Shown: in pieces, positions 1,198 through 57,705 of the stretch
Numbering within the stretch: the stretch's first letter is position 1
Layout of the letters: every line of letters starts with the position of its first letter
Assembly: GCA_013824245.1 (NCBI GenBank)
Contig: PNNN01000009.1
Span: 62,001 to 126,000 of the forward strand
DNA: 64,000 nt
Direction of reading: 5' to 3'
From: Chlorobiaceae bacterium
Lineage (GTDB): Bacteria > Bacteroidota > Ignavibacteria > UBA10030 > SZUA-254
Translations under genes and position numbers: made by a program
The notes under the pieces: generated by a model
The model's database searches: none
The model's input: the letters and a program-made list of their open reading frames with translations, nothing else
What the model was told of the DNA's origin: nothing

Positions 1198-4100
1198 ATG
1201 CACAATATCGAATATTCTACAGGTTCATTAAAATTAGACAAACATTTAGGGGGTATCGTTCCGGGCGATACAATGCTCCTTCTTTTCAGCATCGAATCGG
1301 ATGTTTCATCTTTATTCAAAAGGATTCTCGATTACTCCTTCGAGAATAAAATACCGGTTCATCATTTCTTTTTCGGAAAAAGTAACATATCGGAGATTCA
1401 AAACCAAAAAAAATACAAAGCCATCGAATTCCGTATTGCCGAAATAAAGCCGAAATCTTTTCCCAGCAACTTTATTCAACAATTATTGTCGATAAAAAAT
1501 AAATCGGTTGTCATTATCGATGGTTTACATCTTTTGCAAGAGTCAGGTTTAACCGAAAAGAACATTCTGTTATTATTTCAAAAGCTTGGAGATATTAGTC
1601 GAAAGAAGAAACATTTTGTAATCGTTTCTCTCCGGCGCGATCTCTCAAATATAAAATTGATCGCCGATCTGAAAGATATATCTTCAATTTGTTTGGATAT
1701 AATTCGATTTAAGGATGAATTGTATTGTTTGCCCGTATCACGAAAGGGGAGATACAGACCATCCGAGCTTATTCCTTTCAATATCACTATGGCGTTGAAA
1801 GATAGTTCTTTAAAATCTATACAAATAATCTCTCCCGATTCAGTAATTGGAAGTTTTGAAAAAAGATTCGAACAAAGTTTTAAAAAAGCAACAGATGCAC
1901 TTCTTCTTTTCGACCGTAATGGCACTCATCGCGAGTTTAACGATCGCATGATCTCGCTCCTTGGATATGACATTGATGCGTTGAAAATAGTTAGGTTAAC
2001 AGATTTAGTAGCCCCTTCTCATCGTCGCACTTTTTTAAAATCGATTTTAGAATTGCAAAAGAAACGCTCTACCGATATTGCGCTTGACTTAATTAAAAAT
2101 AATGGAAAAATCCTACCGGTTGAAATACATATTTCAACAATAGCCGGTGGCTGGTATTTTGCAGTAGTTCGGCTCGTTGAGAATGAACAGGAAATGCTGA
2201 GGATATATCAACAGCAATCTAGAGATTTTGAATCGATCATATCAATGGTAAATGTTGCCATTCTTCTTGTTCGAGAAAATAAGATTGTGTTTGTCAATAA
2301 TAAGTTCATCACACTATTTGAATATCCGAAAGCAGAGGATATATTACAGAAACAAATTAAATCTTTTACATCGTCCGAATCGAATCGGAAACTTCAAAAA
2401 TCGATTCAATCTGTTCGTGAGTCGGGTGAATCTGCAATAATAGAAATTCCGCTCATCGCAAATACCGGTAAAGTGATTGAAACGAGAATATATTTATCAT
2501 CCGTACAGTTTCAGGGAAAGAATTGTATTCAACTTTCGATTCAAGATATCACCTTAGATAAGAAGACAGTTGCTGAAGCCGTTGACAAAATAAATTTATT
2601 CAGAACTTTGATTGAAAACGCGATTATACCCGTTACGATTGTGAATAATGGAATTGTAAAGATTGCAAATCAATCGTTCCTTGAATTAGTTCATCAGGAA
2701 TCACCACAGATAATCGGAAAAGAAATTCTTTCAGTAATAGCAGAGGAAGATAGAGATCGATTTACTCAGGTTCTCGCGAAGCAAACCGGGGCAAAATCAA
2801 AACCTGCTGTCGAACAATTTGTATTGAAGCATCATGATAACAAGAAATCTGAATGCGCACTTTCTTTTTTCAATCTTATCGATCTTAAAACGGGGGATGT
2901 TGCAATTTACTTTGAAGACAGATCGGGTCAAAACGCGATTGACAAAGAAATCTCTCAACGGCGGCAGGAGATAGAGTATCTTAAAAATATCAGTTCAACT
3001 TTATTCAGCAATTTTGATTTAAATAAATCTTTCAGAAATGTAATAATCAAAATATCAGATTTGTCCGGCTTAGAAATGGGTGCGGCTTACCTCCCGGATG
3101 GTGCTGGTGCAAAAATAATCTTAACCGAGTCCCGTAATTTACCAACAGAAGTCGCTCTTAAACTTAACGAATTTGAGAATGAACACGGCATAGGCGGCTT
3201 TATCTCGAAGACACTCTTACCGCATCTGTTCCACATTGCTCGATATCCAAGTTATCTTCCGCATCGGAGTATTTTTAAATCGGTGGGAATAAAAATTGTC
3301 GCGCTGATTCCGTTGGTGGCAAACGAAAAATTAGTTGGGATGTTCTTATTTTGTTCTCGAAAAGATCAATCTGCAGTTCATTTCACGCAAGATCTTTATA
3401 CAACTATCGGGCATTTGCTTGGCAATCATCTGATTAATGCTAAAACATTCAAAGAAGTGAAGGCAACAGCGGACTTGGCTTCTTCATTGATTGAGTCGAG
3501 TCCAGATCTACTTTATCAGGCATCTCCGTCAGGTGCATTTACGTTGGTTAACGGTAGGATAGATCATCTTACAGGATATACAAGAAATGAATTTACACGC
3601 ATTAAAGATTTATGGCTTAAGTTAATTCATCCTGACGATAAAAAATATTTTCTCGAAAGAATTACACGGCTTGAAAATATTAACAGGCGTGATGAAATTG
3701 AATACCGAATTCTCCCCAAAGGCAAAGCGGAATACCGCTTTGTAAAAGACGGAATTGAAGTTTATCGCGATGCGGACGGAAATGCTTCACATATTCTGGG
3801 AACAATAGTCGATCAGACGGAAGTCAAGAATATTCTAAAAACCCTCAATCAAGAAAATATTTTTCAGAAAAATCTTTTGGGATCGATACCGGAATCGATA
3901 ATAGTATTCGATAACAACCAACGATCTATTTACTGCAACATCTCGTTCCAAAATCTTTTTAATACAGAGTTCGAGAAGATACGGCAAAAAGATGCTCGCT
4001 CAATCTTACCGTTCTACGATGAAATGGTTTTTGATGATGTCATAAAACGTGTTTCAGCAGGCGATCAAGCCGAGATTTTAGAATTCCAGTGGAAAGAAGA

Positions 4101-7100
4101 AAGAAGCGAGAAAGAAATCTTTCTCCGAGGTATCTTCACCAATTTACTCGATAACGATAAAAATAAAATCGGAACAGTGATTGTTCTCAATGATATAACT
4201 GATCAAAAGAGAACTGAAAATGAGATCCGAGAATCTCAACATGTTTTAAGTAACGTGATAGATACGATGGGAGATATCCTGATACTCACTAATTTGCAAG
4301 GTACGGTAGTTCAGGTGAATCGGACATTCCTGAATCTTCTCGGTTATAATCGGAACGAAACAAACGGTTGTGAATTTCCTTATCCATGGTTGATTGAAGA
4401 TGAGATGGGTCGGTTTGTGCTTTGGATCGCCAGCTTACGCGAACATAACTGGCTGCACGATTTTGATATGACGCTTCGCGCGAAAGACGGAACATTGATT
4501 CCGGTAAGCTTGAGTACTACATTGTTGCGAAATCGGCTTGGTGAACCGATAGCGATGCTGAATATTGCCCGGAATATCACTGAGCGAAAGCGCCTGGTTC
4601 AAACTTTAGAAAGCAGAAATAAGCAGATCGAACTTTTCAACCGAATAATATCCAAAGCAAATCAAACATTCGATCTGCGCGATATTTTCGTTACCGTTTC
4701 GAGTGAAATAAAAAACCTTGTGCAGTATGATAATATCAGCATCAATATACTCAAAGACGATTCGAAAAATTTAACGGTTTATTCAGGAACCCAGACCGGA
4801 TTAATTGGTGTAAAGATTATACCTCTCGATCAAACTATTTCCCAGTTTATCATCAAAGAAAAGAAACCGGTGATAGTGGATGATTTACAGGTAGATGAAC
4901 ATTGCAAGGAAATAAAAAGGTACTTCAGCGAAACACGTTCGCACATTGGTATTCCTATAACATTGAAAGATAAAATCTTAGGAACGCTGGAACTCTCGGG
5001 CACGGAACCCTTTATCTACACAGATGACCATTTGCTCTTGCTCACTCCAATTGCGCAGCAAATCGGCACAATCATAGATCGGGTTTTGCTGTTCCGCCAG
5101 GTTTCCGAAGATTCGGCATATATACATAACCTCTTAGATTCGATCAACAGCATTGTTTACACCGTTGATACCGAGCTTCGGATCAGGGAAGTGAATAACG
5201 CATGGCGGCAGTTCATGAAAGAATTCGGTAAAGCCGGTACCGATGATTATGAAGGAAAATATCTATACGACTTACTGCCTAACGATGCAGTAAAATATAT
5301 TTTGCAAGGTGTTGTCGATAGAATGCTTGCAGGAGAGTTAAATATTTTCTCACAAGAAATTCTTTATAAAACATCATTAGGAGATAGAACATATCAGCTT
5401 ACCGTTAATCCGATGGAGATCGGTAAAAGAATTACCGGTTTGGTCTTCACACAAACAGATATAACAGCGCTGAAAAATTCCGAAGCTGAACTCAAGAGGA
5501 GCAATGAGCAACTTATTGCACTCAATGAGATATCGGGTATTATCAGCAGTTCTCTTGAATTTCAGAAAATGCTAGAAAAAGCATTACCGCTTTTAAAAGA
5601 ACTCATTAGTGCTTCAGCAGTTATTTTATATCTCCATGATCCCGGCGAGAACGATCTGGTTATGCTATCGCAATCCGGGTTCAATGTTGAAGAAAATAAA
5701 ACCATTCAACGATTGAAACAATCCGGCTCTGCAACGGGAACGGTAATAGCATCTAAAGAAGCGTTGTACATCGATCAGAATGCATATCTTGATGAGCGGA
5801 TCACACCGGATAATAGATCGATTCTGCAACGGTTGAGTTTGGTAGCGATGGCACTTGTACCCATTATCTCCAATGATCGAGTGCTTGGTGTAATAGATAT
5901 TTTCTATAATAATATTCATCCATTTACCGAAAAAGAAAAACAGATACTGACGTTAGTAGGAAACCAGTTCGGTTCAGCTATCGAGAATGCCCGACTTTAC
6001 ACCGAGTTACGCATGCAAGTTGAAAGACTGACCGTTCTCTATGAAATAAGTGAACACCTGACATCAACATTAAATATCGATGAAATATTTGCAACTGTTT
6101 ATAATCAAGTTAAGCAGGTGATTCCGTTCCAGATGTTCAAGATAGATTTGTACGAGGAGAAGACAAAAACAAAAACGCCTATGCTCCATGTGGAACGCGT
6201 AGGAGGTGAAGAAATCTTTATTGCAACGCAGGCGCATTCGAGCATCATCACTTCCGGGTCGATTCTGGAACGAGTGGTTGAGAGCAGAAAAGCATATCAT
6301 TCTTCCGATAATCGCACAATGTTTATCCCAATGTTATCTAAAGAAGTTTTGTTAGGTTTGATGTCGGTTGAAGCAGATAGCGAGAACTCCTATTCGGAAA
6401 CTCAAAAAAGATTGATGGAAAGTATCGCCAATTTAACGGCGCTCGCGCTTGAAAAGGGGAAACTTCACGAGGAGACGTTGCAGAAATCTGCCGAGATAGA
6501 AAGACGCAATAAAGAGCTGGACGATTTCACATATGTCGTTTCTCACGACCTGAAAGAGCCATTAATAAGCGTGGAAGGTTTCAGCAGAATATTGCAATCC
6601 GATTTTCAAGATATTATACAAGCTGAAGGGAAAGAATATCTCGATTCAATCGTTGGTGCAACTACGAGGATGAAAGGTTTAATCGATGATTTGCTTCTCC
6701 TTTCACGCGTAAGCAGGCCTGCTGAATCGTTCAGAGAAATTGCAATTGGAGACGTTATTAGAGATATTCGGACTGATATGGAATTTACTATCAGGCAAAA
6801 AAACGTATCATTCATACTACCGGAAGAATTACCTGCGGTTTATGGCAATGATACTCAGGTTAGGATCGTATTCCGAAATTTGATTGGCAATGCCATTAAA
6901 TTCAACGATAAAAAAGATCCTGCTATTGAGGTAAAATTTCAAAATGCCGAAAATAATTATTATCTTTTTGCAGTCAAAGATAACGGCATTGGGATTGACA
7001 AAGAATTTTATGAAAAAATATTTGTTATCTTCCAGCGGCTTCATCGTCGTGAGGAATATGAAGGTTCCGGTGCAGGTTTAGCTATTGTGAAAAAAATCAT

Positions 7101-7203
7101 CGAATTACATAAAGGTAATATTTGGGTCGAATCGGTCCCTGGAACCGGCTCAACATTTTATTTTACGCTACCCAGGGTAAGTTCATCCAAGGAACAGGTT
7201 TAA
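1198..7203 (+). CDS. Giant multi-PAS/GAF sensor histidine kinase with KaiC-like N-terminal domain
   Basis: This 2001-residue kinase has no obvious membrane segment and is probably cytoplasmic. Residues 1-215 resemble a KaiC/RadA-type ATPase (STGSLKLDKHLGG start, Walker-B-like SVVIIDG at about 103), but the P-loop is absent: the expected GxxGxGKT position reads FSIESDVSS. PAS-like domains lie near 225-330, 340-455, 463-575, 758-880, 885-1003, 1010-1130 and 1305-1430. GAF-like domains lie near 590-745, 1140-1300, 1440-1602 and 1612-1755. The HisKA box has His1783 (SHDLKEP), followed by a HATPase with N-box near 1894-1901, DNGIGID and GSGAGLAIVKK. The response regulator begins 1 base after the stop, so the two are surely a pair. 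Domain counts were made by eye. Confidence 0.92.
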   Translation: MHNIEYSTGSLKLDKHLGGIVPGDTMLLLFSIESDVSSLFKRILDYSFENKIPVHHFFFGKSNISEIQNQKKYKAIEFRIAEIKPKSFPSNFIQQLLSIKNKSVVIIDGLHLLQESGLTEKNILLLFQKLGDISRKKKHFVIVSLRRDLSNIKLIADLKDISSICLDIIRFKDELYCLPVSRKGRYRPSELIPFNITMALKDSSLKSIQIISPDSVIGSFEKRFEQSFKKATDALLLFDRNGTHREFNDRMISLLGYDIDALKIVRLTDLVAPSHRRTFLKSILELQKKRSTDIALDLIKNNGKILPVEIHISTIAGGWYFAVVRLVENEQEMLRIYQQQSRDFESIISMVNVAILLVRENKIVFVNNKFITLFEYPKAEDILQKQIKSFTSSESNRKLQKSIQSVRESGESAIIEIPLIANTGKVIETRIYLSSVQFQGKNCIQLSIQDITLDKKTVAEAVDKINLFRTLIENAIIPVTIVNNGIVKIANQSFLELVHQESPQIIGKEILSVIAEEDRDRFTQVLAKQTGAKSKPAVEQFVLKHHDNKKSECALSFFNLIDLKTGDVAIYFEDRSGQNAIDKEISQRRQEIEYLKNISSTLFSNFDLNKSFRNVIIKISDLSGLEMGAAYLPDGAGAKIILTESRNLPTEVALKLNEFENEHGIGGFISKTLLPHLFHIARYPSYLPHRSIFKSVGIKIVALIPLVANEKLVGMFLFCSRKDQSAVHFTQDLYTTIGHLLGNHLINAKTFKEVKATADLASSLIESSPDLLYQASPSGAFTLVNGRIDHLTGYTRNEFTRIKDLWLKLIHPDDKKYFLERITRLENINRRDEIEYRILPKGKAEYRFVKDGIEVYRDADGNASHILGTIVDQTEVKNILKTLNQENIFQKNLLGSIPESIIVFDNNQRSIYCNISFQNLFNTEFEKIRQKDARSILPFYDEMVFDDVIKRVSAGDQAEILEFQWKEERSEKEIFLRGIFTNLLDNDKNKIGTVIVLNDITDQKRTENEIRESQHVLSNVIDTMGDILILTNLQGTVVQVNRTFLNLLGYNRNETNGCEFPYPWLIEDEMGRFVLWIASLREHNWLHDFDMTLRAKDGTLIPVSLSTTLLRNRLGEPIAMLNIARNITERKRLVQTLESRNKQIELFNRIISKANQTFDLRDIFVTVSSEIKNLVQYDNISINILKDDSKNLTVYSGTQTGLIGVKIIPLDQTISQFIIKEKKPVIVDDLQVDEHCKEIKRYFSETRSHIGIPITLKDKILGTLELSGTEPFIYTDDHLLLLTPIAQQIGTIIDRVLLFRQVSEDSAYIHNLLDSINSIVYTVDTELRIREVNNAWRQFMKEFGKAGTDDYEGKYLYDLLPNDAVKYILQGVVDRMLAGELNIFSQEILYKTSLGDRTYQLTVNPMEIGKRITGLVFTQTDITALKNSEAELKRSNEQLIALNEISGIISSSLEFQKMLEKALPLLKELISASAVILYLHDPGENDLVMLSQSGFNVEENKTIQRLKQSGSATGTVIASKEALYIDQNAYLDERITPDNRSILQRLSLVAMALVPIISNDRVLGVIDIFYNNIHPFTEKEKQILTLVGNQFGSAIENARLYTELRMQVERLTVLYEISEHLTSTLNIDEIFATVYNQVKQVIPFQMFKIDLYEEKTKTKTPMLHVERVGGEEIFIATQAHSSIITSGSILERVVESRKAYHSSDNRTMFIPMLSKEVLLGLMSVEADSENSYSETQKRLMESIANLTALALEKGKLHEETLQKSAEIERRNKELDDFTYVVSHDLKEPLISVEGFSRILQSDFQDIIQAEGKEYLDSIVGATTRMKGLIDDLLLLSRVSRPAESFREIAIGDVIRDIRTDMEFTIRQKNVSFILPEELPAVYGNDTQVRIVFRNLIGNAIKFNDKKDPAIEVKFQNAENNYYLFAVKDNGIGIDKEFYEKIFVIFQRLHRREEYEGSGAGLAIVKKIIELHKGNIWVESVPGTGSTFYFTLPRVSSSKEQV

Positions 7204-18874: not shown

Positions 18875-20338
18875 ATGCTTTCGCTTGAATTAATTCTACT
18901 GACCGGATCATTCCTGATTCTCTTAAGCATCGGTATCGCACGATTTACCGACAACTTGGGAGTTCCAACATTATTACTCTTTCTTGGCATCGGAATTTTA
19001 GCAGGGGCGGAGGGACCGGGAGGAATTCATTTCAATGATTTAGGTTTCGCTCGTTCATTAGGAATCGTTTCTCTAATCCTAATACTATTTGCCGGTGGTT
19101 TAGATACACAATGGTCATCAGTTCGAACCGTTGTTTTTCAGGCGGTTAGTTTATCGACATTTGGAGTTCTGATTACAGCAGGTGCAGTTGGTATTTTTGT
19201 ATCATACTTTTTCCACTTTTCTATACTTGAGGGTTTACTCCTCGGTGCAGTTATTTCTTCAACAGATGCCGCTGCTGTTTTCTCAGTATTGCGATCGAGA
19301 AATGTGAATCTAAGCGGTCAATTAAAACCATTGATCGAACTTGAATCAGGTAGCAACGATCCGATGGCAGTATTTCTCACCATTGGTATCATTCAGATTC
19401 TCGTTAACCCTTTCACTACATGGCTGGACATAATTGTTTTGTTCATCGTCCAGATGGGAATTGGCGCTTTGGGTGGTTTAGTGTTTGGGAAATTAATCAT
19501 TTTCTTGCTGAATCATTTAAAAATATATTATGAAGGAGTCTACCCGGTATTCACGCTTGCATTTGCAATACTCGTCTATTCGATAACATCAATTATCGGT
19601 GGAAGTGGATTTCTTGCTGTTTATCTTGCGGGAATTTTGTTAGGGAATTCCGAAGTTGTTCATAAAAAGAATATGTTTCGTTTCTTTGATGGAATGGCAT
19701 GGCTTAGCCAAATAGGTATGTTTCTGACGTTAGGATTATTGATCTATCCATCTCATATTCTTCCTGTGTTAGGGATCGGTTTAACTACATCATTGTTTTT
19801 AATGTTTGTAGCTCGGCCCATCAGTGTGTTTGTTTCACTTATCAGTAAAAAATTCCACTGGCGTGAAAAGGCGATGGTGTCATGGGTCGGACTGCGCGGC
19901 GCTGTACCAATTATACTTGCCACATTTCCCTTGATGGCTAATCTTCCAAACTCGGAAATGATGTTTAACATTGTATTCTTTATTGTTCTGACCTCCGCGT
20001 TGTTTCAGGGGTGGTCAATCCCGATTGTGGCGAAGTTGCTTAGAGTTGATGCACCCTGGCAGCATAAGAGAAAATACCCGATAGAGTTTGAGCCGCCTCG
20101 CGGTGTCGATACTGAGTTGATTGATTTCATCGTTCCGTATAATGCTGATATGATCGGGAAATCGATCGTCGAGTTGGGATTGCCTGATGATAGTCTGATT
20201 GTTTTGATAAGTCGTAATGATGAATATATTGTACCGAGTGGTGGCACTTCATTAGAAGCCGGAGATACTTTACTGATACTTGTGAACAAACAAAATATGC
20301 CGCGTGTGCGTGAAATATTTTCGGAACAAAAGTTTTAG
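18875..20338 (+). CDS. Potassium/proton antiporter of the CPA1 family, NhaP2-like
   Basis: A 487-residue protein with about 12-13 membrane helices (1-390) and a cytoplasmic TrkA-C/RCK-C-like domain (about 405-485, MIGKSIVELGLPDDSLIVLISR). The ion-binding helices read ISSTDAAAVFSVLR and ELESGSNDPMAVFL, the ND pair typical of CPA1 exchangers, and VGLRGAVPIILATFP is another family landmark. NhaP2/CvrA-type proteins expel K+ or Na+ for protons, and the C-terminal domain usually senses a nucleotide. Together with the upstream transporter it gives the block two cation antiporters. Confidence 0.88.
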   Translation: MLSLELILLTGSFLILLSIGIARFTDNLGVPTLLLFLGIGILAGAEGPGGIHFNDLGFARSLGIVSLILILFAGGLDTQWSSVRTVVFQAVSLSTFGVLITAGAVGIFVSYFFHFSILEGLLLGAVISSTDAAAVFSVLRSRNVNLSGQLKPLIELESGSNDPMAVFLTIGIIQILVNPFTTWLDIIVLFIVQMGIGALGGLVFGKLIIFLLNHLKIYYEGVYPVFTLAFAILVYSITSIIGGSGFLAVYLAGILLGNSEVVHKKNMFRFFDGMAWLSQIGMFLTLGLLIYPSHILPVLGIGLTTSLFLMFVARPISVFVSLISKKFHWREKAMVSWVGLRGAVPIILATFPLMANLPNSEMMFNIVFFIVLTSALFQGWSIPIVAKLLRVDAPWQHKRKYPIEFEPPRGVDTELIDFIVPYNADMIGKSIVELGLPDDSLIVLISRNDEYIVPSGGTSLEAGDTLLILVNKQNMPRVREIFSEQKF

Positions 20339-20422: not shown

Positions 20423-21325
20423 TTATTGTTTAATATATTCGCCGAAACGACTTTGAAAAACAACCTTGTGAACGGGATGGGTAACAGTGAGCACCGGAAT
20501 GCTCACCCGGCGCACAACCTCTTCGGTAGTATTCCCGATTTGTACTCTACGCATTCCTCGTGTGCCATGCGTTCCCATAACAATCAAATCTGCCTGATAT
20601 TCTTGCGCCAATCGAACTATAGCATTTTCCGGTTCGATATCTTTATCGATGAACTTCTCAGTATTTACATCAGCCGCTCTATCGTGGTATATCTGCAAAT
20701 CTGGAAATTTATCAATTAGACGTTCCGGATGAGCAAAAGAAATATCGGCAACATGCAGCAACAATAGTTTGGCTGAGTAGTGGCGTGCAATTGAAATTGC
20801 ATACGGAAGAGCATAGTTACCATATTCAGAAAAATCTGTTGGGCATAAAATAGTTTTTATTTGTGGAATAAAATTAGAACTCTGCGAAGCGATTGTGAAA
20901 ATGGGAGTTCGTATGAGTCGAACGACTCGTTCTGCTGTACTTCCGATGAGATGTGGTGATGAGCGTCCTAATCCAAGAGTTGAAAGGACAACTGCTGAAT
21001 ATCCGTTTGTTTCGGCTTCATTAATAATTTCAATATAAGGCGTTCCAGATCGTATCAGAACGTTAGTATGTTGATTGTCTAATTTCAGTGTTTCAATAAT
21101 TTCAGAAAATTTACGATGAGCCAGCTCCTCAATTACTTTACGATGTTCCAATCGTTGGTGTTCATTTTGCATAAAGTACCCAGGAGCTGTTGTAAAATAT
21201 CCATCAACATAAAGTAATGTAATTATTCCCTTCAAACGTTCAGCTACATAAATGCCAAAGCGAATAGCATCAAGTGAACTCGGAGAAAAATCTGTCGGGC
21301 ATAGTATTCTTTCAAGTTTATACAT
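20423..21325 (-). CDS. Tandem universal stress protein (two UspA domains)
   Basis: A 300-residue protein made of two Usp domains (about 4-147 and 155-288), each opening with the typical ILCPTDFS strand and Asp. The ATP-binding signature G-2x-G-9x-G(S/T) is nearly complete in both halves. The first has Ser in place of the first Gly (STLGLGRSSPHLIGS), and the second ends GN rather than GS (GTHGTRGMRRVQIGN). Tandem Usp proteins bind ATP or other nucleotides and help under stress. Its place between ion antiporters and the trehalose operon suits an osmotic or energy-stress role (inference). Confidence 0.9.
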   Translation of the reverse strand: MYKLERILCPTDFSPSSLDAIRFGIYVAERLKGIITLLYVDGYFTTAPGYFMQNEHQRLEHRKVIEELAHRKFSEIIETLKLDNQHTNVLIRSGTPYIEIINEAETNGYSAVVLSTLGLGRSSPHLIGSTAERVVRLIRTPIFTIASQSSNFIPQIKTILCPTDFSEYGNYALPYAISIARHYSAKLLLLHVADISFAHPERLIDKFPDLQIYHDRAADVNTEKFIDKDIEPENAIVRLAQEYQADLIVMGTHGTRGMRRVQIGNTTEEVVRRVSIPVLTVTHPVHKVVFQSRFGEYIKQ

Positions 21326-21565: not shown

Positions 21566-22789
21566 CTATAGAAACAGCACATCTTTACCTTTATGGTCAA
21601 GCGAGAGAAAGAGCAGCATGTAATCGCGTAGATGTCTTGTAATAAGAAAATTCTTTCGCACATGTTCTCTGCCATTTATGCCAAGCTGTTGTCCATAAGT
21701 TGGGTTCTGTAACAATTGTTTAAGTGCAAAGGCAGTTCCTTCGATTGTATGAGTAAGCAAACCAGAATAACGGTTAGCGATTTGTAGAGGTATACCGCCC
21801 ACCGAACTTGCGATAACCGGTTTCGCTTTCCAAAGGGCTTCAGCTACCGTTAGCCCAAATCCTTCACGGAGTGATTTTTGCAAAACAACTGATGATGCTC
21901 GTTGAAGTGCATTAATTTCGATATCGCTGCTTGGTGGAAGTAGCAACAGGAAAATATCAGGATCGTTTGCTGCGATTTCCTGAACTTCAGCAAGTACCTT
22001 GGCACCCTCGGGATCATCAGTAGCTCCGCCTCCAGCAAGAACGAGCTGGCAGTCGATGTATTTTCTAACTTTCCGGAAAACCTGTACAACACCTTTCGGA
22101 TCTTTCAAATAATCGAATCTTGAGATTTGTGTTACTATCGGACGATTTTTATCTATCTTGAATTTTTCTAATACTGTATCAATTGTTTCTTGAGGTAAAT
22201 CTTTATTCTTATCGCTCAACGGATCAATCGAGGGTGCGATGAGGACTTGCGGAATCGTTAACTCACGCGCGAATGCAGGTGCCGAAAATATGCTGACATC
22301 GTATTGCTCGATATATTTTTTAAGAAAATTCCAGGTAAAAGGATCAGGACGCGAGAAATCAATATGGCATCGCCAAATCCACTTGTGTCCGATTTCTTTC
22401 CGTCTAGAAATTAGCCCAATTGGTTGAGGATCATGTATGAACATAATGTCTCCACCCAAATCCATATCCCTTACATTCATTTCGTTGGTTTGTATAAACA
22501 AATCCATTTCATCTTTTGAAAATAAAACTTTTTGTCCATGGAGAGCATTATGCATTTTCTTGGTTACTTCATAAAACTTTTCTCCACCTTTTATAACATC
22601 CCAGAAAGCATTAATACCAAGGTCTTTTAAAAGTGGGACCATGCGTATTAATATTTCGGCAACACCACCTCCAACGGCGGTCGAGTTAATGTGTTGGACA
22701 CTAACGTTGGCAAGTTTACTTGCATAAAGTTCCAATTCGTTGATTACATCCTTACCGACGATAGGCTCATATTCATAAAGGTTAGCCAT
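21566..22789 (-). CDS. treT: Trehalose synthase, glycosyltransferring (TreT-like GT4)
   Basis: A 407-residue GT4 retaining glycosyltransferase. The N-terminal Rossmann domain starts with VQHINSTAVGGGVAEIL, the donor-side loop typical of TreT. The C-terminal domain has VTQISRFDYLKDPKGVVQVF, LVLAGGGATDDPEGAKV and the nucleotide-sugar motif KSLREGFGLTVAEALWKAKPVIAS. TreT makes trehalose in one reversible step from glucose and an NDP-glucose. GGAGG lies just ahead of the ATG, overlapping the end of the preceding gene. It is the last gene of the reverse-strand trehalose operon. Confidence 0.85.
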   Translation of the reverse strand: MANLYEYEPIVGKDVINELELYASKLANVSVQHINSTAVGGGVAEILIRMVPLLKDLGINAFWDVIKGGEKFYEVTKKMHNALHGQKVLFSKDEMDLFIQTNEMNVRDMDLGGDIMFIHDPQPIGLISRRKEIGHKWIWRCHIDFSRPDPFTWNFLKKYIEQYDVSIFSAPAFARELTIPQVLIAPSIDPLSDKNKDLPQETIDTVLEKFKIDKNRPIVTQISRFDYLKDPKGVVQVFRKVRKYIDCQLVLAGGGATDDPEGAKVLAEVQEIAANDPDIFLLLLPPSSDIEINALQRASSVVLQKSLREGFGLTVAEALWKAKPVIASSVGGIPLQIANRYSGLLTHTIEGTAFALKQLLQNPTYGQQLGINGREHVRKNFLITRHLRDYMLLFLSLDHKGKDVLFL

Positions 22790-22790
22790 A

Positions 22791-23453
22791 TTATTTTCCC
22801 TCCAATCGCACTCGGACTAATCGCACAAGATTATGTTTGAGGTTATCAAGTGTTTGTGTATATGGATCAAGGTTTTTGAACGCTAATGCTAACTTTTCAT
22901 CTTCAAGTGAATTTTGGATCCAATAACAAAATCGAGATTTTTCCTGGAATAGAGGCGCTTCAAACATGTGATAATAAATTGAATAATTTGAAACGCTTCC
23001 GAGACACTGTTTGAATTCCATTAAATCATTTGCGATGTATTGTGTAGGGAATACAAAGGTTTGAGCGCCCATGAAGTGGAATTCTTCACCTGCTGGAACA
23101 TTTCGATTAGCGGATTCAGGATCATGTTGAATAGAATTTTCAACAATCTCAACAAGTCTTACTTGAATATCTTTTAATGAGGAGAATTGACGAAGATCTA
23201 TACCGGCAATCTCTTCGCCAAGCGCATTATTCTGAAGAACGTTGGTGATCCAATATGCAAAGTCGTTAGGCGGTTCAGGAGAGAGGTATTCATGCTGCTC
23301 GAGAAAGTGATGAGTGTGTTGGTAGATTGATGCAAGCGGTATTTCCTTAATTCCTGTTAGGAGTGCATTTAAGTTTTTTGCTTTCTTCCCTAAGAGGTAT
23401 GTCAGATTTTGGCGTGTGAAAAATTGGAATGGTTCTTTTGCAATGCGATTCAT
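22791..23453 (-). CDS. DUF5752-like protein in the trehalose operon
   Basis: A 220-residue, probably soluble protein without a recognisable catalytic motif. It begins EPFQFFTRQNLTYLLGKKAKNLNALLTGIKEIP and has conserved-looking segments SIYQHTHHFLEQHEYLSPEPPNDFAYWI and FPTQYIANDLMEFKQCLGSVSNYSIYYHMFEA, with several His, Trp and acidic residues. I recognise it as the DUF5752 type of protein that travels with treT and GT20 genes; the family name is from memory. Its ATG overlaps the otsB stop by 4 bases and treT starts at once after it, so it should act in trehalose synthesis or its control. Confidence 0.7.
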   Translation of the reverse strand: MNRIAKEPFQFFTRQNLTYLLGKKAKNLNALLTGIKEIPLASIYQHTHHFLEQHEYLSPEPPNDFAYWITNVLQNNALGEEIAGIDLRQFSSLKDIQVRLVEIVENSIQHDPESANRNVPAGEEFHFMGAQTFVFPTQYIANDLMEFKQCLGSVSNYSIYYHMFEAPLFQEKSRFCYWIQNSLEDEKLALAFKNLDPYTQTLDNLKHNLVRLVRVRLEGK

Positions 23454-24265
23454 AGATGATCTCGTTGATTGTGTTTTAATGAAATAATATTCTCTAAAAA
23501 TTGCCGCACTTCTGAAGTATTGCGGACAAAATATTTTGCATTGGAAGATTTATTTTTACCCACACGAATTGTTACTGCCCTCGATGGCAATAATTTAAAT
23601 GCGTCTTCATCAGTTTTATCGTCTCCAATGAATATAATAATCGATTTATCAGTTGCTCGAAACATTTTTAAGATTCGAAGAATTGCCTGACCTTTATCCC
23701 ATGAAATACAAGGGCGAACTTCGAATACTTTTTTCCCTGTCGTTATTTTTAACATTCCATCATACGGCTGAATGATTTGTTTCAAGACTCTCTTTAGTCG
23801 TCGGACGCGTTCTGGGTTCACATTCCGATAGTGCACACTTAATGTTACTCCTTTGTTCTCAAGAAGAACTCCTTTTATCGGTGTAAGTGATTTTGCGAGA
23901 ACTACATCAACTTTATTAAGTAGTGGCAATACTCGTTTTGCATCTGCGTGTGTCCATGTTTGCTTTTTGTAATGAATCTGGAACCCATGGTTAGCAGCAT
24001 ATAGTATATTTTTGATCCTAACAAGATTGCGAATATCATATAGCGAGCGTCCTGTGACGATGCCGACGAAAATATTCGGCAGTATCGATAACTGAGCAAT
24101 CAACGAACGCATCTTTACCGGAAGTATGGATAATGAGGGTTGTTTTTTTATCGGTACAAGCGTTCCGTCATAATCGAATAGTAAAAATGTTCGGTTACTT
24201 GTCGTAATCCGATGCTGAATGCTATTCCAAACATTTCCATGAAATAAATATGTTGGCACTGTCAT
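23450..24265 (-). CDS. otsB: Trehalose-6-phosphate phosphatase
   Basis: A 271-residue HAD-superfamily phosphatase that removes phosphate from trehalose 6-phosphate. HAD motif I is LLFDYDGTLVPI (about 28-39), motif II is the Thr in VGIVTGRS, and motif IV is FIGDDKTDEDAF (about 216-227). The segment YAANHGFQIH is typical of OtsB. It lies 11 bases downstream of the TPS gene and overlaps the DUF5752-like gene by 4 bases, so TPS and phosphatase are made together as in OtsAB systems. Confidence 0.92.
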   Translation of the reverse strand: MTVPTYLFHGNVWNSIQHRITTSNRTFLLFDYDGTLVPIKKQPSLSILPVKMRSLIAQLSILPNIFVGIVTGRSLYDIRNLVRIKNILYAANHGFQIHYKKQTWTHADAKRVLPLLNKVDVVLAKSLTPIKGVLLENKGVTLSVHYRNVNPERVRRLKRVLKQIIQPYDGMLKITTGKKVFEVRPCISWDKGQAILRILKMFRATDKSIIIFIGDDKTDEDAFKLLPSRAVTIRVGKNKSSNAKYFVRNTSEVRQFLENIISLKHNQRDHL

Positions 24266-24276
24266 AATTCAGTCGA

Positions 24277-26526
24277 CTAAATATTTTTTCCAATTCGTAT
24301 TCGTGAGAGTGTAGCGACCAAATTAGCCGCCCAGCGATAGACGTTATGTTCTTTTAATATTCCCTGCATTCTTTTCATTCGTAATTTTCGTTCATCGGGT
24401 GGCATAGTTAGCGAGGAATGAATCGAATCGGCAACCTCCTCGATGTCATAAGGATTTATAATAAAAGCGTCGTGAAATTCTCTCGATGCACCTGTGAATT
24501 GACTGAGGATAAGCACTCCATCTTCATCGTTTCGCGAAGCAACAAACTCTTTAGCGACTAAATTCATTCCATCGTGAAGCGATGTTACCATGCAAATATC
24601 TGATGCCTTATAATAGCGGTTTATCGTTTCGTGATTGTGATGAGCTTCGAGATAAATAATTGGTTTCCATTTTTTTGTTTGGAAGCGCCAATTAATCTTG
24701 TTTGCGGTTTCTTCTACTTCAGCCAACAAATCGTGATATCTTTTGATATGAGTTCGACTTGGTGCGCCAAGCTCAACGAATGAAAAATTTTCAATGTATT
24801 CAGGATATTTTTCAAAGAACCGCTCAACCCCCTTAAACCGCTCAATGATACCTTTGGTGTAATCAATCCTATCGACACCAACACCAAGAGATTTGAGCGA
24901 AAGACCAAGCTCTTTTTCTAAATTTAATTTCAGTGTGTCTTTTACAATAGCAGTTTGATCATCATATCCGAAAATGGGAGGGAATGCTACGCTAATAGGA
25001 AATGGCTTTACAAGTGTAACATGCTCATTGCGTTCTATTGAAAATTGTTCCCAGTTTATTTTTGATTCGAGGAACCTATCGATCGTATCGAGGAAATTAT
25101 TGCAGTGATATTGGATTTGAAAACCTACCAAATCGGCGGCTAACAGACCTAAAAGTATTTCCCGTTTCCACGGACAGATTCCAAATGATTCAGGGTTGGG
25201 CCATGGAATGTGCCAGAATATTGCTACTCTGGCATCGGGGCGTTTTGATTTAATAAGAAAAGGAAGAAGAGCGAAATGGTAATCTTGAATCAAAATGAGT
25301 GGTTCTTGTTCTTGTTCAATTTCTTCAAGTAATGCTTCTGCAAATTTCTCGTTCACCTTCTGATAGTGCACCCAATCTTCTAAACGGAAAATTGGTCGAT
25401 GGTGTGTGATATGGCAAAGGGGCCAGATACCTTCGTTTGAAAAACCATAGTAATATCCTTCTTCTTCATCTTTTGTGAGCCATACTCGTTTCAAACTGTA
25501 TCGTGGTTCATCCGGTGGAACATCGAGTTTTCCATTTTTATCTGCCATTTCTACATCAGCATCGCCGCTTCCATGAGCAATCCAAACTCCGCTGCAAGCA
25601 CGCATGATAGGATCCAATGCTGTTACTAATCCGCCAGCAGGCACAATGCACTCTATTTTTCCGCCACTCCGGATATGCATGTATGGTTCACGGTTTGAAA
25701 TAACATAAAGATTTTTACCGCCTAATTCTTGCCGAACATGTTCTTTGAGTCGTTCCGGTGTCCATATTGATTCAGCCCGTGCTCGTAGCTGGGCTTCGGT
25801 TTCTGCAGAAGCTCGGGCTAATGCGAGGTTTTTCGCTAAGAGAGTTACTTCTTTTGCAAGAGGTCCTAAAACATCTCCTCGCGGAAGGTTGATTGGTTGT
25901 CTAATCTTGCCCAGTCGCAATCCTTTCAGCCAATCTGCAATCTGTGCTATTGGACCGATCAAACTCCATCGGACTACGAGTATTGTTGTGAGAATGATTA
26001 GAAATGAAAGTGTAAGAAGTCGGACGAAGTTGTAGCGCCAAATCTCTTTAAGTCTGGCCTCAATGTACGATACATTGTGCGTAAGGATTAGTGATCCTAT
26101 AACTTGTTGATCTCTTCGGAGCGGGAAAGTGTAAATGTGTGTTTTTATACCGTTGATTGTTTCAAAGCTTGATATCCCTTCGTTCCTTGTAGTAGACTCC
26201 ATGATGTATTTTATAATCTCTTGCTTAGAAGAATCAATATTGGGACTCCTTTCAACAAATACACCTTGACTATCATAGATAGCAATACCAACAAATGGAT
26301 TACGTTTTACAAAACGTTCGATGAACTTTTTCAACCTCTCAGGTGATTTAGATAGTAACGGTTCAGTGACCGAACCTTCCATGCTTTCAGCAAGTGTGGA
26401 AGCCCGAAGAGTAAGCTCCGTCGTTAATCGCTCTTCTTCATTTTGCACTTGATAATAAGAGAAAATAGTCGCGACGAGTGCAGCCACAAATAAGAGCGAT
26501 ACAATAAGACGAAGTGTAATTTTCAT
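24277..26526 (-). CDS. Membrane-anchored sensor/HAMP-trehalose-6-phosphate synthase fusion
   Basis: A 749-residue fusion. Residues 1-240 look like the front of a receptor: a membrane helix (about 7-26), an extracytoplasmic domain of ~140 residues with the single-Cache-like stretch VGIAIYDSQGVFVERSP, a second helix (about 168-188) and a HAMP-like linker (IGPIAQIADWLKGLRLGK). After a short helical link, residues 275-745 form a GT20 synthase with VISNREPY, QDYHFALLPFL, VDRIDYTKGI (Arg/Lys near 551-556, equivalent to OtsA Arg262/Lys267) and HDGMNLVAKEF near 650. It makes trehalose 6-phosphate from NDP-glucose and glucose 6-phosphate. The front suggests activity set by an external or membrane signal (inference). 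First gene of the operon. Confidence 0.88.
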   Translation of the reverse strand: MKITLRLIVSLLFVAALVATIFSYYQVQNEEERLTTELTLRASTLAESMEGSVTEPLLSKSPERLKKFIERFVKRNPFVGIAIYDSQGVFVERSPNIDSSKQEIIKYIMESTTRNEGISSFETINGIKTHIYTFPLRRDQQVIGSLILTHNVSYIEARLKEIWRYNFVRLLTLSFLIILTTILVVRWSLIGPIAQIADWLKGLRLGKIRQPINLPRGDVLGPLAKEVTLLAKNLALARASAETEAQLRARAESIWTPERLKEHVRQELGGKNLYVISNREPYMHIRSGGKIECIVPAGGLVTALDPIMRACSGVWIAHGSGDADVEMADKNGKLDVPPDEPRYSLKRVWLTKDEEEGYYYGFSNEGIWPLCHITHHRPIFRLEDWVHYQKVNEKFAEALLEEIEQEQEPLILIQDYHFALLPFLIKSKRPDARVAIFWHIPWPNPESFGICPWKREILLGLLAADLVGFQIQYHCNNFLDTIDRFLESKINWEQFSIERNEHVTLVKPFPISVAFPPIFGYDDQTAIVKDTLKLNLEKELGLSLKSLGVGVDRIDYTKGIIERFKGVERFFEKYPEYIENFSFVELGAPSRTHIKRYHDLLAEVEETANKINWRFQTKKWKPIIYLEAHHNHETINRYYKASDICMVTSLHDGMNLVAKEFVASRNDEDGVLILSQFTGASREFHDAFIINPYDIEEVADSIHSSLTMPPDERKLRMKRMQGILKEHNVYRWAANLVATLSRIRIGKNI

Positions 26527-35114: not shown

Positions 35115-35187
35115 GCGGGAATAGCTCAGTTGGTAGAGCGTCACCTTGCCAAGGTGAATGTCGCGGGTCCGAATCCCGTTTCCCGCT
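35115..35187 (+). tRNA. tRNA-Gly (GCC)
   Basis: Acceptor arms GCGGGAA and TTCCCGC pair perfectly. The D-arm GCTCAGTTGGTAGAGC, anticodon stem TCACC/GGTGA with loop TTGCCAA, and T-arm GCGGGTCCGAATCCCGT are complete. The anticodon GCC reads GGC/GGU. The 3' CCA is not encoded. Confidence 0.96.
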
Positions 35188-35246
35188 CAATTTTATCTGA
35201 TTGCGCGGAAATAAAAATTTGATAAGCATATAAAGATTTCAGAAAA

Positions 35247-35289
35247 CGCCCTGCTGCTTCCATTACATCATGCGGCGGGGCTTATTTTT
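35247..35289 (+). terminator. Terminator after tRNA-Gly
   Basis: GCCCTGCTGC and GCGGCGGGGC pair over 10 bp with two G-T wobbles, followed by TTATTTTT. It separates tRNA-Gly from the next three tRNAs. Confidence 0.7.
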
Positions 35290-35302
35290 AAAAATTAAAA
35301 AT

Positions 35303-35374
35303 GGCGCCGTACCCAAGTGGTAAGGGAGAGGTCTGCAAAACCTTTATGCGGCGGTCCGAATCCGCCCGGCGCCT
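35303..35374 (+). tRNA. tRNA-Cys (GCA)
   Basis: Acceptor GGCGCCG pairs with CGGCGCC. The anticodon loop CTGCAAA holds GCA, and the T-arm is GGCGGTCCGAATCCGCC. The short D-arm CCCAAGTGGTAAGGG is typical of tRNA-Cys. CCA is not encoded. Confidence 0.95.
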
Positions 35375-35466
35375 CGAGTATGGTGAGTGGTTAATAAGAT
35401 AATTTGTGGATAAGAATTTATACGATTCCGATTTGCAACTCACTAATGAATAAGTGACGAAAGATT

Positions 35467-35552
35467 GCCGGGGTGGCGAAACTGGTAGACGCACAGGACT
35501 TAAAATCCTGTTCTCCGCAAGGGGAGTGTCGGTTCGATTCCGATCCCCGGCA
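35467..35552 (+). tRNA. tRNA-Leu (TAA)
   Basis: Acceptor GCCGGGG pairs with CCCCGGC. The anticodon arm CAGGACTTAAAATCCTG carries TAA. A long variable arm (TTCTCCGCAAGGGGAG) is present as expected for leucine. The 86-base tRNA lacks an encoded CCA. Confidence 0.96.
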
Positions 35553-35569
35553 CTCAGGAAAAATATTTT

Positions 35570-35643
<74 letters not shown>

Positions 35644-35702
35644 CACGAAAGGGGAAATGAAAATTTCAGAGCTGATATTTTATAAAATTGAGCTGTTTAC
35701 TG

Positions 35703-53316: not shown

Positions 53317-56300
53317 ATGCGATCGCTAATATCCATCATTCTACTTGTCAGTTTTATCACTTGTTCCTCAGACTGGACGCATGCACAAAACAAATCATCT
53401 GAGGGGGTAGAAGATTGTAAATCATTCCGCACCCGGCTTTTAGAAAATTACCTCTTTCAAAGACGAAGTTTAAACCTTTCATCCAAAATTAAACCAAATT
53501 CAACTGCATCCACAAACCAAAACGCATCAACTTCGCACTTCTTTGATTTAATATCTAATAATAATTCACAGAATAATATTTCGAATATAACCGGTGATGT
53601 CCATGAAGAATGGATTCGCCGTTATGAATCTAATAACTTGTCATCAATTGATCAGGCGAATGCAATCGCTGTGGATGATAACGGAAATGTTGTTACTACC
53701 GGTATCAGTTTTACATCTTACACCGGAGCCGATTATCTCACATTAAAATACAATGAGCGCGGTGAGGTTCTGTGGAGTAAAAGATTCAACGGTGATGCCA
53801 ATGGTTACGATGAAGCGGTTGGAATTGTAACTGATAAAAACGGTAATGTTTATGTATCAGGATTTAGCGCAATGAATCATAACAAGTATGGCATCGTCAC
53901 AGTTAAATATAACAGCGTTGGAGAGATTGATTGGATTAAAAAATATTTGTCTTTGAGCGATAGCATATCTATTCCAACATGTTTGGAGATTGATAATACA
54001 GGGAATATTTTGATCGGCGGTTATTCTGAATCAAAACTCTCCGGTGTAGATATGCTGACATTAAAGTATGACCCAAATGGAGAATTATTATGGAGTAGAA
54101 GATACGATGGGATGCAAAATGGTTTGGACTTAATATTCGCTATGGCTGTTGATTCTGCGGGGAGTGTTCTTGTCGGTGGGGCATCTCAAAATTCAGAATC
54201 GGGCAGTGATATGATTATGATACTGTATGATTCTGCCGGCTTTTTAAAATGGGAAGACAAGTTATTCCAATCTTCAAGCAACCGCGATGCGGTAACATCT
54301 GTAGCATTTGATTCTGAAAGCAATGCATACGCAACAGGTTATTATGCGGGTTTAACATCGAATTATGATTATTGCACCATGAAAAACGATATGAACGGCA
54401 GCAGACAGTGGCTGGTAACTTACGATGGTGAAGGGAATGGAAATGACTATGCCTCAATGATTAAAATAGATCAATATGATAACATATACGTAACCGGTTC
54501 AAGTTATGGAGGCATATCTGCATTCGATTACGCAACTGTCTCGTATGATAAATTCGGGAATCTTCGTTGGAGCGAATCTTACAAAGGAAGCGCAGGATAT
54601 GATGATCAAGCGATATCGCTGGTTATCGATCGCGCTCACAACCATATTTTAATTACAGGCAGTTCAAACTCATTGAACGGCGGACCTGCCGATTACGCCA
54701 CGTTGTGTTATAATTATACCGGATCTCTCGCATGGAAAACTTTTTACGACAATATCTCGAACGCTGATGACCGACCCGCTGCGATGGTCGTTGATAAGAA
54801 AGGTAATGTTTATGTTACAGGAAGCAGTAATGGTGCTTTTTCATCGTACGATTATCTAACTACAAAATATATATCGATAGAGTCTAATCAATGGCCCACA
54901 CGTTTCAATAATGGCAACGGCAGTAACATCATTTCACATCTGAGTAAAGATTCAAATGGAGACGTGATTATTACCGGAAGCGATTCATCGAAAATTGTTA
55001 TCGTAAAATTGGATTCAACAGGAGGGCTGAAATGGCAAACGAATTATGGTTATGAGAATAGCAAATCAACGGGATTAGCATTAGACAATACCGGTAACAT
55101 TTATGTATCGGGATATTCATATTACTTAGGAACATACGATTATATCACTTCAAAATATAATGTTGATGGAATATTATTATGGAGCGTTAGATATAACGGC
55201 ACTGGAAATCTCGCTGATCGTTCAGCAGGGGTTGCAATCGATTCGGCAGGGAATGTTTATGTAACCGGTTCAAGTTACGGTGTTGGCAGTCAATCCGATA
55301 TTGTAACAATTAAATACAATACAGATGGTGTTGAACAATGGATTGCCCGGTATAACGGCAATTATAATAATCGCGACAGCGCGATCGGCTTGGTGATAGA
55401 TTCAATTGGAAATGTGTATATAGCGGGAACAACCATCCGTTCCGGTTCCTCATATGATTTCATTGTTATAAAATATCTGAGTAACGGTGTTGAATCCTGG
55501 CGATCATTTTACAACGGTACCGCCAATGGCGCCGATTTTCTCAACGCAATTGGAACGGACAACAAAAAATATATTTATGTTACCGGAAGAAGTAACGGAG
55601 TTAGAACTTATGGGGACTATGCGACTCTGAAAATAAGTTATTCTGGAGTTATTCAATGGGTTGCACGGTATAATGGACCGGCAAACAATATTGATAATCC
55701 GACTTCCTTAGATATTGACTCAAGAGGAAATGTTGTTGTTACGGGTATTACATTTTCTTTCCAAGCCGGTTACGATATCGCGACAGTCAAATACGATTCT
55801 ACTGGTATGCAACTATGGTCTCGCATTTATAACGGAGACGAAGATAGAAACGATGAACCAGCTATTCTTAAAATTGACGCTGAAGGCAATACTTACATCG
55901 CCGCGACGAGTAATCAGTTAAGTTCCGGAGATGATATCGTCGCGCTCAGATATTCTCCCGATGGATATTTCGACTGGCTAATCCGTTACAACAGTCTTTA
56001 CAATCTGAATGACAATGCAAAATCAATTTTACTCGATACAGATGGAAAATATATATACACAGGCGGAAATAGTTTAAAACAGGATCATAAACAAGATATC
56101 ATCATCATTAAAAACACTTTTAGTGGTTCTTCAGATCAGCTTTGGCCCCAACGCGAAAACGGACCGGGAATTAGTTACGACGATATTAAAATGCTAAAAA
56201 TCTCTCCTCAAGGTGATGTTATCATCACAGGTAAGAGTTTAACAAACATCGGCACAGAAGATTATTTTCTTTGTTCATATAAACAAACAGGTGATCAAAA

Positions 56301-57705
56301 CTGGAATGTCATTCAAAAAAGTCTATCGGGGGGAGATATAAATATTTCCGATATGTCGTTCGACTATGGTGGAAAAATCGATTTAGTGGCGACTAATTAC
56401 AATCGTTATTCACCAAGCGATATTGAGACTATTCAATACAACTTAGACGGTGGTTTTTTATGGCAACAACGATTATCTGATGGATTTGAGAATAGCTATG
56501 ACTTTGGAACATCAATCGCGGTTGATGAGAGTGCCAATGTTATTGTTGCCGGTTATAGCTCCGGAACAACTTCATATGATTATGTGATTCTTAAATACGA
56601 TAGTATAGGCAATATGCTTTGGAAAAACATTTACGACGGCGAATCGAAGAAAGACGATTTAGCGTACGATGTGGCTGTTGATAAAGTTGGGAATATTTAT
56701 GTTACCGGATTAAGCACCGGTTCAAACACACGATCTGATTTTGCAACGGTAAAATATTCTTCCGATGGAGAACAAAAATGGGCAGTTCGATGGAATGGAG
56801 AAATTAATGGAGATGACAGGCCCGTAGCGATTGCAATTGATAAGCTTGATAATATCTACGTCTGCGGATTTTCTACCGGTACAGATACAAGCTATGATAT
56901 CGTTGTAGTAAAGTATGATTCTTCAGGCAATAATCTATTCACAGTTTCTTACCATGGTCCTTATCATACAGACCAGATACCAAAAGCGTTGGCGATTGAT
57001 TATCAGGGAAATATTATTCTTACTGGTCAAACTGAAACACAAGGTTCAAATTATTTCGATTATTTGATATTGAAATATGATCCTTCTGGAAAATTGGATT
57101 GGGAATATTCATATGATGGACCAAGTGGAATGGATGACAAACCGTCTGCACTCTCATTAGATGCCGAGGGTGGGATTTATGTTACTGGTAAAAGTATGAG
57201 TGTTGATTTCAATTACGATTATGCAACAATAAAAATTAATTCTTCTGGCACCCTCGGCTGGATCACTCGGTACGGATCGGTGATTGGGTGTAACAATGAA
57301 CCGAAAAGTATTGCGATTGATTCATCATACTCGGTTTATATTACAGGAACTTCCTCCACAAATGATTGGAGTATCGTATCAACTATAAAGTATTCGCAAT
57401 TGTTAGATGATGTGCTTGATCCGATAGTTGATAGACCGATAAAGTTTGATCTTTCTCAGAATTATCCAAATCCATTCAATTCCCGAACATCAATTCAATT
57501 TTCACTTCCACAACGGGAAAGGATAAAAATGCAAATCTTCAATATGCTGGGTCAACTTGTAGCGACAATCTTTAATGATGAGGCAAGTGCGGGAGTTCAT
57601 AAAATTGATTTGGATGCCACAATCTTCACTTCGGGGCTTTATGTTTACCGTTTGCAAACCAGCAGGGGTGATATTGCATCAAAAAAAATGTTGGTGATCA
57701 AATAA
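53317..57705 (+). CDS. Giant secreted beta-propeller-repeat protein with T9SS sorting domain
   Basis: A 1462-residue exported protein. A signal peptide (about 1-23, LISIILLVSFITCSSDWTHA) precedes a poor-complexity linker rich in Asn/Ser. From about 100 to 1370 the sequence consists of roughly two dozen repeats of ~50 residues of the SBBP type: A(I/V)A(V/I)D..GNVYVTG.S...... DY.T.KY...G...W..RYNG. These should form several beta-propellers. The last ~85 residues (FDLSQNYPNPFNSRTSIQFSL to KKMLVIK) are a type A T9SS sorting domain, so it is sent to the cell surface or medium. Ligand unknown. Confidence 0.9.
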   Translation: MRSLISIILLVSFITCSSDWTHAQNKSSEGVEDCKSFRTRLLENYLFQRRSLNLSSKIKPNSTASTNQNASTSHFFDLISNNNSQNNISNITGDVHEEWIRRYESNNLSSIDQANAIAVDDNGNVVTTGISFTSYTGADYLTLKYNERGEVLWSKRFNGDANGYDEAVGIVTDKNGNVYVSGFSAMNHNKYGIVTVKYNSVGEIDWIKKYLSLSDSISIPTCLEIDNTGNILIGGYSESKLSGVDMLTLKYDPNGELLWSRRYDGMQNGLDLIFAMAVDSAGSVLVGGASQNSESGSDMIMILYDSAGFLKWEDKLFQSSSNRDAVTSVAFDSESNAYATGYYAGLTSNYDYCTMKNDMNGSRQWLVTYDGEGNGNDYASMIKIDQYDNIYVTGSSYGGISAFDYATVSYDKFGNLRWSESYKGSAGYDDQAISLVIDRAHNHILITGSSNSLNGGPADYATLCYNYTGSLAWKTFYDNISNADDRPAAMVVDKKGNVYVTGSSNGAFSSYDYLTTKYISIESNQWPTRFNNGNGSNIISHLSKDSNGDVIITGSDSSKIVIVKLDSTGGLKWQTNYGYENSKSTGLALDNTGNIYVSGYSYYLGTYDYITSKYNVDGILLWSVRYNGTGNLADRSAGVAIDSAGNVYVTGSSYGVGSQSDIVTIKYNTDGVEQWIARYNGNYNNRDSAIGLVIDSIGNVYIAGTTIRSGSSYDFIVIKYLSNGVESWRSFYNGTANGADFLNAIGTDNKKYIYVTGRSNGVRTYGDYATLKISYSGVIQWVARYNGPANNIDNPTSLDIDSRGNVVVTGITFSFQAGYDIATVKYDSTGMQLWSRIYNGDEDRNDEPAILKIDAEGNTYIAATSNQLSSGDDIVALRYSPDGYFDWLIRYNSLYNLNDNAKSILLDTDGKYIYTGGNSLKQDHKQDIIIIKNTFSGSSDQLWPQRENGPGISYDDIKMLKISPQGDVIITGKSLTNIGTEDYFLCSYKQTGDQNWNVIQKSLSGGDINISDMSFDYGGKIDLVATNYNRYSPSDIETIQYNLDGGFLWQQRLSDGFENSYDFGTSIAVDESANVIVAGYSSGTTSYDYVILKYDSIGNMLWKNIYDGESKKDDLAYDVAVDKVGNIYVTGLSTGSNTRSDFATVKYSSDGEQKWAVRWNGEINGDDRPVAIAIDKLDNIYVCGFSTGTDTSYDIVVVKYDSSGNNLFTVSYHGPYHTDQIPKALAIDYQGNIILTGQTETQGSNYFDYLILKYDPSGKLDWEYSYDGPSGMDDKPSALSLDAEGGIYVTGKSMSVDFNYDYATIKINSSGTLGWITRYGSVIGCNNEPKSIAIDSSYSVYITGTSSTNDWSIVSTIKYSQLLDDVLDPIVDRPIKFDLSQNYPNPFNSRTSIQFSLPQRERIKMQIFNMLGQLVATIFNDEASAGVHKIDLDATIFTSGLYVYRLQTSRGDIASKKMLVIK

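Follow-up and report, generated by a model that had tools for sequence, protein, structure and literature searches.

The stretch of DNA analysed here (64,000 nucleotides, called the window below) carries a gene whose product joins a membrane receptor module to a trehalose-6-phosphate (T6P) synthase of family GT20 (sensor-TPS; Table 1). The reading frame starts with ATG, and a GGGG a little 5' of it is a candidate ribosome-binding site. The gene is followed by otsB (after 11 nt), a DUF5752 gene (-4 nt) and treT (1 nt), and then by the gene of a universal stress protein (Usp), which probably lies downstream within the same transcription unit. The TreT model NF041139 scored below its cut-off on the TreT-type gene. 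Promoter-like sites near the operon numbered 20, against 22 expected by chance.

Table 1. Features of the sensor-TPS protein, its operon and the MscS fusions of other genomes (L numbers denote loci in other genomes)
Feature	Position	Strand	Basis or remark
Sensor-TPS gene, 749 aa, TM1-Cache-TM2-HAMP-like-helix-GT20	24277..26526	-	ORF, Pfam, hydropathy, model, homologues
TM1, residues ~3-22	26461..26520	-	Hydropathy and model helix 2-58
Periplasmic Cache-type domain, residues ~29-164	26035..26442	-	Profile search, structural alignment, Foldseek
TM2, residues ~167-187	25966..26028	-	Hydropathy and AlphaFold2 model
HAMP-like linker, residues ~190-236 (putative)	25819..25959	-	Collinear kinase HAMP, model helix-connector-helix, heptad-quantised helices
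Signalling helix in continuation of the HAMP-like linker, residues 237-254	25765..25818	-	Model helix 221-254; inter-clade length step exactly 7
Junction W255 and GT20 N-cap helix, residues 255-267	25726..25764	-	No variation at W255 or L260 among 52 sequences
GT20 trehalose-6-phosphate synthase, residues 272-741	24304..25713	-	PF00982 E=6e-114, 381.7 bits vs cut-off 32.5
OtsB trehalose-6-phosphate phosphatase	23450..24265	-	11 nt after synthase; PF02358 E 8e-49, TIGR00685 over cut-off
DUF5752 protein	22791..23453	-	4-nt overlap with otsB; PF19027 E 1e-53
TreT-type trehalose synthase (GT4)	21566..22789	-	1 nt after DUF5752; PF21269 E 4e-53
Universal stress protein, two Usp domains	20423..21325	-	PF00582 E 1e-44; intergenic gap 240 nt
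Na+/H+ antiporter with TrkA-C domain	18875..20338	+	PF00999 E 1e-49, PF02080 E 2e-16
MscS-DUF5752 fusions, 376-465 aa	L146:12481-13857, L147:12472-13848, L148:12622-13752		Directly adjoin treT
MscS-DUF5752 fusions, 376-465 aa	L149:8786-10165, L153:6594-7991, L154:6474-7868		Directly adjoin treT
MscS-GT20 fusion, 722 aa	L192:2681-4849	-	MscS TM/beta domain ~1-226, GT20 253-718

A chance or mis-joined reading frame, an annotation join and an assembly artefact were ruled out, because 51 non-redundant homologues share the two-TM module and most of them, in several phyla, are full length from residue 1. The preliminary description had taken the N-terminal part for a receptor, and this is borne out by a Cache fold, two transmembrane helices and homology to kinase input modules. 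The architecture, for which the lack of any sensor or HAMP fold had been named as a counter-argument, stands, with a sensor fold and a HAMP-like unit both found.

A profile of the 52 N-termini matched the WalK Cache structures 5is1, 4ywz and 7dud among PDB chains (E 4e-5 to 5e-4) and, more weakly, KinD, a LapD-like receptor and DcuS. Residues 1-270, modelled with AlphaFold2 (mean pLDDT 78), begin with a long helix (2-58), followed by an alpha/beta domain of Cache type and a helix across the membrane (153-190). C-terminal to TM2 come a helix (192-204), a connector and a further helix (221-254). The Cache plan is present in the model, with the long N-terminal helix, an antiparallel sheet and a C-terminal helix leading into TM2. 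Its best structural matches were WalK, CitA and KinD (VIA-align Z 13-14 at 2.2-3.5 Å). In NCBIfam, residues 3-246 matched the WalK kinase model (E=1e-7) and residues 63-242 the AtoS model (2e-4), both under the whole-protein cut-offs; scores this low are expected when the kinase part is missing. No curated Pfam Cache model exceeded its cut-off (best sCache_like, 17.0 vs 27 bits), so the domain is named Cache-type on account of its fold and is not assigned to any named Pfam Cache family. The likeness of the model to WalK, CitA and KinD is one of common fold and says nothing on the ligand. As Cache domains usually bind a small molecule, membrane strain is just one of several possible inputs.

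The Pfam HAMP model did not match sensor-TPS itself, and a direct match at E<0.1 was obtained in only 4 of 52 family members. The profile of the 52 N-termini aligned over residues 1-250, nearly its full length, to histidine kinases in other genomes. In these, the stretch corresponding to residues 187-236 is a Pfam HAMP domain (E 1e-12 to 3e-15), followed by HisKA and HATPase_c. It follows from this end-to-end alignment that a kinase-type input module carries a different output here. We infer the HAMP unit of sensor-TPS from the homologous kinases, the model and the helix spacing, and use the term HAMP-like rather than HAMP. The HAMP stretch of the AlphaFold2 model has low confidence (pLDDT 51-66); in the full-length AlphaFold model, the pLDDT of GT20 is below 50 over long stretches, and the junction geometry is too weak to read.

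The spacing of the coupling helices was compared across 52 sequences. In the first helix, the distance from S188 to W199 was 11 or 4; in the second, the distance from P222 to W255 was 33 or 26, with a single exception of 32. The connector between the helices varied from 23 to 35. The coupling helices therefore change length by whole heptads only (one exception in 52), like coiled coils that keep their register, which in these alignments is as expected for a signal-transmitting coupler. Both heptad deletions fall on one deep split of the tree and may have arisen together; the main weight of the coupling argument therefore lies on the absence of other indels.

The junction with the enzyme is sharp. 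The signalling helix stops at residue 254. W255, which is invariant, opens a short helix that is shared with the N-terminus of a soluble sister enzyme, L013, which begins at this GT20 N-cap helix (MWTKDRLSELIQ). The receptor plan of the preliminary description was right, and its boundary at residue 240 has to be moved to ~254. In a plasmid search, all matches covered <80% of sensor-TPS, and the best started at residue 255.

The output is a GT20 synthase instead of a kinase, as had been proposed: the PF00982 match is clear and the catalytic residues are intact. HisKA/HATPase and MCP signalling domains were absent from sensor-TPS in Pfam, which detected only GT20 past residue 272. The residues equivalent to R10, Y77, W86, D131, H155, R263, K268, R301, D362 and E370 of Escherichia coli OtsA (Met=1) are all invariant in the family alignment; their substrate and catalytic roles are established for OtsA. 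The score with the OtsA equivalog TIGR02400 was below its cut-off (408.6 vs 564.85 bits), so the protein is filed under GT20 and not as an OtsA equivalog. The glucosylglycerol-phosphate model scored lower than the OtsA model (285.2 bits). Judged from these scores, the enzyme half is a divergent OtsA-type synthase; its residues show it to be apparently intact. It resembles E. coli OtsA over the whole GT20 domain, in the catalytic residues and in the pairing with OtsB, but OtsA is soluble and sensor-free, and the two are ~30% identical.

The 51 non-redundant members of the family come from Bacteroidota, Nitrospirota and a third phylum. According to the match tables, 13 of the 98 genomes from the window's order have a full-length relative (the copy in G240 is broken by a contig end), as do ~55 of 246 from the phylum of L002 (Nitrospirae) and ~19 of 247 from that of L005 (titled Deltaproteobacteria, labelled Myxococcota by the tree tool). 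The presence is patchy, since the one same-genus genome searched (G172) does not have the gene. A tree built from 101 GT20 domains placed the 51 sensor proteins in one group (support 90) beside soluble enzymes. The tree thus points to one ancient fusion that was retained across at least three phyla. A repeated gain of the sensor was rejected, as a single change at this support accounts for the tree; the long branches of the soluble sisters and of E. coli OtsA leave the rooting unsure. Two candidates for further sensor versions were also dismissed. Nitrospirota enzymes of ~740-750 aa that match only from residue 257 were mostly OtsA-OtsB fusions with a C-terminal phosphatase, and the long N-terminus of L198 was discarded for its overlap with treT.

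Among the window's nearest relatives, pN/pS was 0.14-0.20 in the periplasmic part vs 0.10-0.14 in GT20. In more distant pairs, omega was <0.4 for the periplasmic part, somewhat looser than for GT20. These ratios indicate that the sensor is under purifying selection. Identity to relatives was ~49% in the periplasmic domain vs ~71% in the enzyme, and to the distant clade ~22% vs ~51%.

OtsB was found near sensor-TPS in 32 of 39 homologous loci, TreT in 22 and DUF5752 in 17; eight loci have a GH15 trehalase-like gene and six have antiporter genes. MscS-type genes were present in 10 of the 39 loci, and a TM protein that is MscS-like but smaller in three. An MscS family member lay within 3 kb of sensor-TPS in 10 of 32 genomes, compared with 0.18 expected from density. 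Although the loci are related, several differ in arrangement (a lone MscS upstream, an MscS-DUF5752 fusion, an MscS downstream). With as few as four or five independent events, the Poisson tail would still be ~3e-5 to 1e-6. No MscS-type gene was recognised at the window's own locus, and the one PF00924 match in its genome is on another contig.

The MscS beta-domain is fused to DUF5752 in six relatives (six by HMM, four of them also shown by Pfam). These proteins could possibly provide a membrane-tension input to the second trehalose enzyme, TreT. The apparent grouping of MscS and DUF5752 in one cluster was traced to these genuine fusions and rejected as a group of its own. The MscS-GT20 fusion of L192 lies outside the sensor clade on a contig of 492 kb. 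It is given as a single case because no second full-length copy was found in 296 genomes. The term DUF5752 was not found in the literature searched, which took in a minority of the subscription journals, and the MscS links are a first handle on this family. MscS genes were also clustered with an OtsA-OtsB fusion, or with OtsA and OtsB, in L189, L190, L191, L196 and L199, mostly together with DUF5752 and TreT.

The nearest studied precedent is the msc-gt-tpsp operon of Thermoproteus tenax, in which a TPS gene lies together with genes for a glycosyltransferase of family GT4 and for a membrane protein resembling MscS (PMC3634074). There, TPS activity depends on a complex with the GT4 partner, the MscS-like channel has been proposed as a trehalose release valve, and the layout was considered unique to Thermoproteales (PMC3634074). 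Relatives of sensor-TPS likewise group TPS, GT4 (TreT) and MscS-type genes, all three together in L136, L143-L149, L153 and L154. The bacterial clusters are comparable in layout, with DUF5752 added, and lie outside Thermoproteales. The T. tenax enzyme is a TPS-TPP fusion with no sensor module, whereas sensor-TPS has the Cache module. By analogy, the adjacency of MscS may mean trehalose release and not sensing, and TreT could partner the synthase in the window's operon, since the T. tenax TPS requires its GT4 partner. The MscS links carry the T. tenax concept of an osmotic operon for trehalose over to bacteria.

The kinases of the WalK/YycG, CitA, DcuS and KinD type have the TM1-Cache-TM2 plan in common with sensor-TPS, with HAMP in the aligned kinases; their output is HisKA and HATPase_c, whereas that of sensor-TPS is a metabolic glycosyltransferase. 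HAMP-linked adenylate/guanylate cyclases likewise use a membrane sensor and HAMP to drive an enzyme directly, but they make a second messenger and sensor-TPS makes a compatible-solute precursor. HAMP modules drive kinases, chemotaxis signalling domains, cyclases and diguanylate cyclases. The TPS activity of mycobacterial OtsA is controlled allosterically by cytoplasmic 2-oxoglutarate and 2-phosphoglycerate, which, unlike the plan of sensor-TPS, involves no membrane input (PMC6879718). Each of the three modules (GT20, Cache, HAMP-like) is known by itself. In the literature searched, which took in a minority of the subscription journals, no description of a surface receptor joined to a metabolic synthase and no relevant paper on a HAMP or Cache fusion to a trehalose synthase was found.

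Our preferred reading, which we regard as fairly probable, is that sensor-TPS is a one-component, membrane-bound T6P synthase under surface control within an osmotic-stress island. The topology, the fold, the intact active site, the conservation and the operon are read from the sequence or the model; the signal, its sign, the allostery, the dimer and the osmotic role we infer. The chain crosses the membrane twice, with the Cache domain outside and with TM2, the HAMP-like unit and the helix running straight into GT20. The protein would work as a dimer, in which a surface cue alters the geometry of Cache and TM2, the HAMP helices re-pack in response, and T6P synthesis is raised or lowered at once. 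OtsB, and separately TreT, would then finish the synthesis of trehalose, which would serve as a compatible solute during osmotic or envelope stress. The cue would most likely be the osmotic or envelope state, acting directly or via a small ligand, and the MscS-type channels of relatives may serve as a trehalose release valve or as a second tension input. An osmotic or membrane-strain context is plausible because of the trehalose operon and the mechanosensitive channels of relatives. The suggestion of the preliminary description, that an outside or membrane-strain signal might set solute synthesis directly without gene regulation, is plausible as a hypothesis. As the design recurs in at least three phyla, bacteria may use the cell surface to switch a metabolic enzyme directly.

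A passive anchor, which just tethers the synthase near channels or antiporters and perhaps dimerises it, with no regulation, would agree with the faster divergence of the periplasmic domain and with the existence of soluble sister enzymes that have no module. However, a two-TM tether needs neither a Cache fold nor a HAMP-like unit nor heptad-conserved helices, and the whole module is under purifying selection and is homologous to kinase input modules, which makes the anchor quite improbable. A nutrient or metabolite sensor, whose Cache domain binds a small molecule (e.g. a carboxylate or an amino acid) and ties trehalose or T6P to nutrition, is a sub-case of sensor control, with the coupling as in our preferred reading and a different cue. 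The nearest folds include citrate-binding CitA, pyruvate-bound KinD and DctB with succinate or malonate. We nevertheless consider it rather unlikely, given that the operon partners indicate stress (Usp, Na+/H+ antiporters, MscS channels) and that the top sequence match is WalK, a cell-wall kinase. The sub-cut-off OtsA equivalog match would also allow for a related sugar phosphate as product, such as glucosylglycerol phosphate instead of T6P. This is highly improbable, as the OtsA model is far above the glucosylglycerol-phosphate model, a trehalose-phosphatase over its cut-off comes next, and the OtsA donor and acceptor residues checked are invariant.

Beyond surface control as such, a wider proposition is put forward tentatively, with slightly less than even confidence: that an extracytoplasmic Cache sensor uses HAMP-type helix signalling to control a glycosyltransferase of primary metabolism, with no kinase, messenger or transcription in between, and that this is one of several convergent wirings of trehalose to the membrane (Cache-HAMP-GT20, MscS-DUF5752 by TreT, MscS-GT20). 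With a biosynthetic enzyme as HAMP output, a surface cue would set metabolic flux in a single step. If so, a triggering of compatible-solute synthesis within seconds, ahead of gene expression, becomes testable.

Some further genes were recorded. A HAMP-linked adenylate/guanylate cyclase of the window's own family (L184:757-2280, minus strand) has a weak match to the sensor module. Histidine kinases at L177:9835-11313 and L178:1039-2532 have a sensor module of the same type as sensor-TPS and lie beside a response-regulator-like ORF, ~7-10 kb from a sister-clade soluble TPS and otsB. In the window, four tRNA genes (Gly, Cys, Leu, Val) are clustered at 35115-35644, and two very long ORFs of 2001 and 1462 aa are located at 1198-7203 and 53317-57705.
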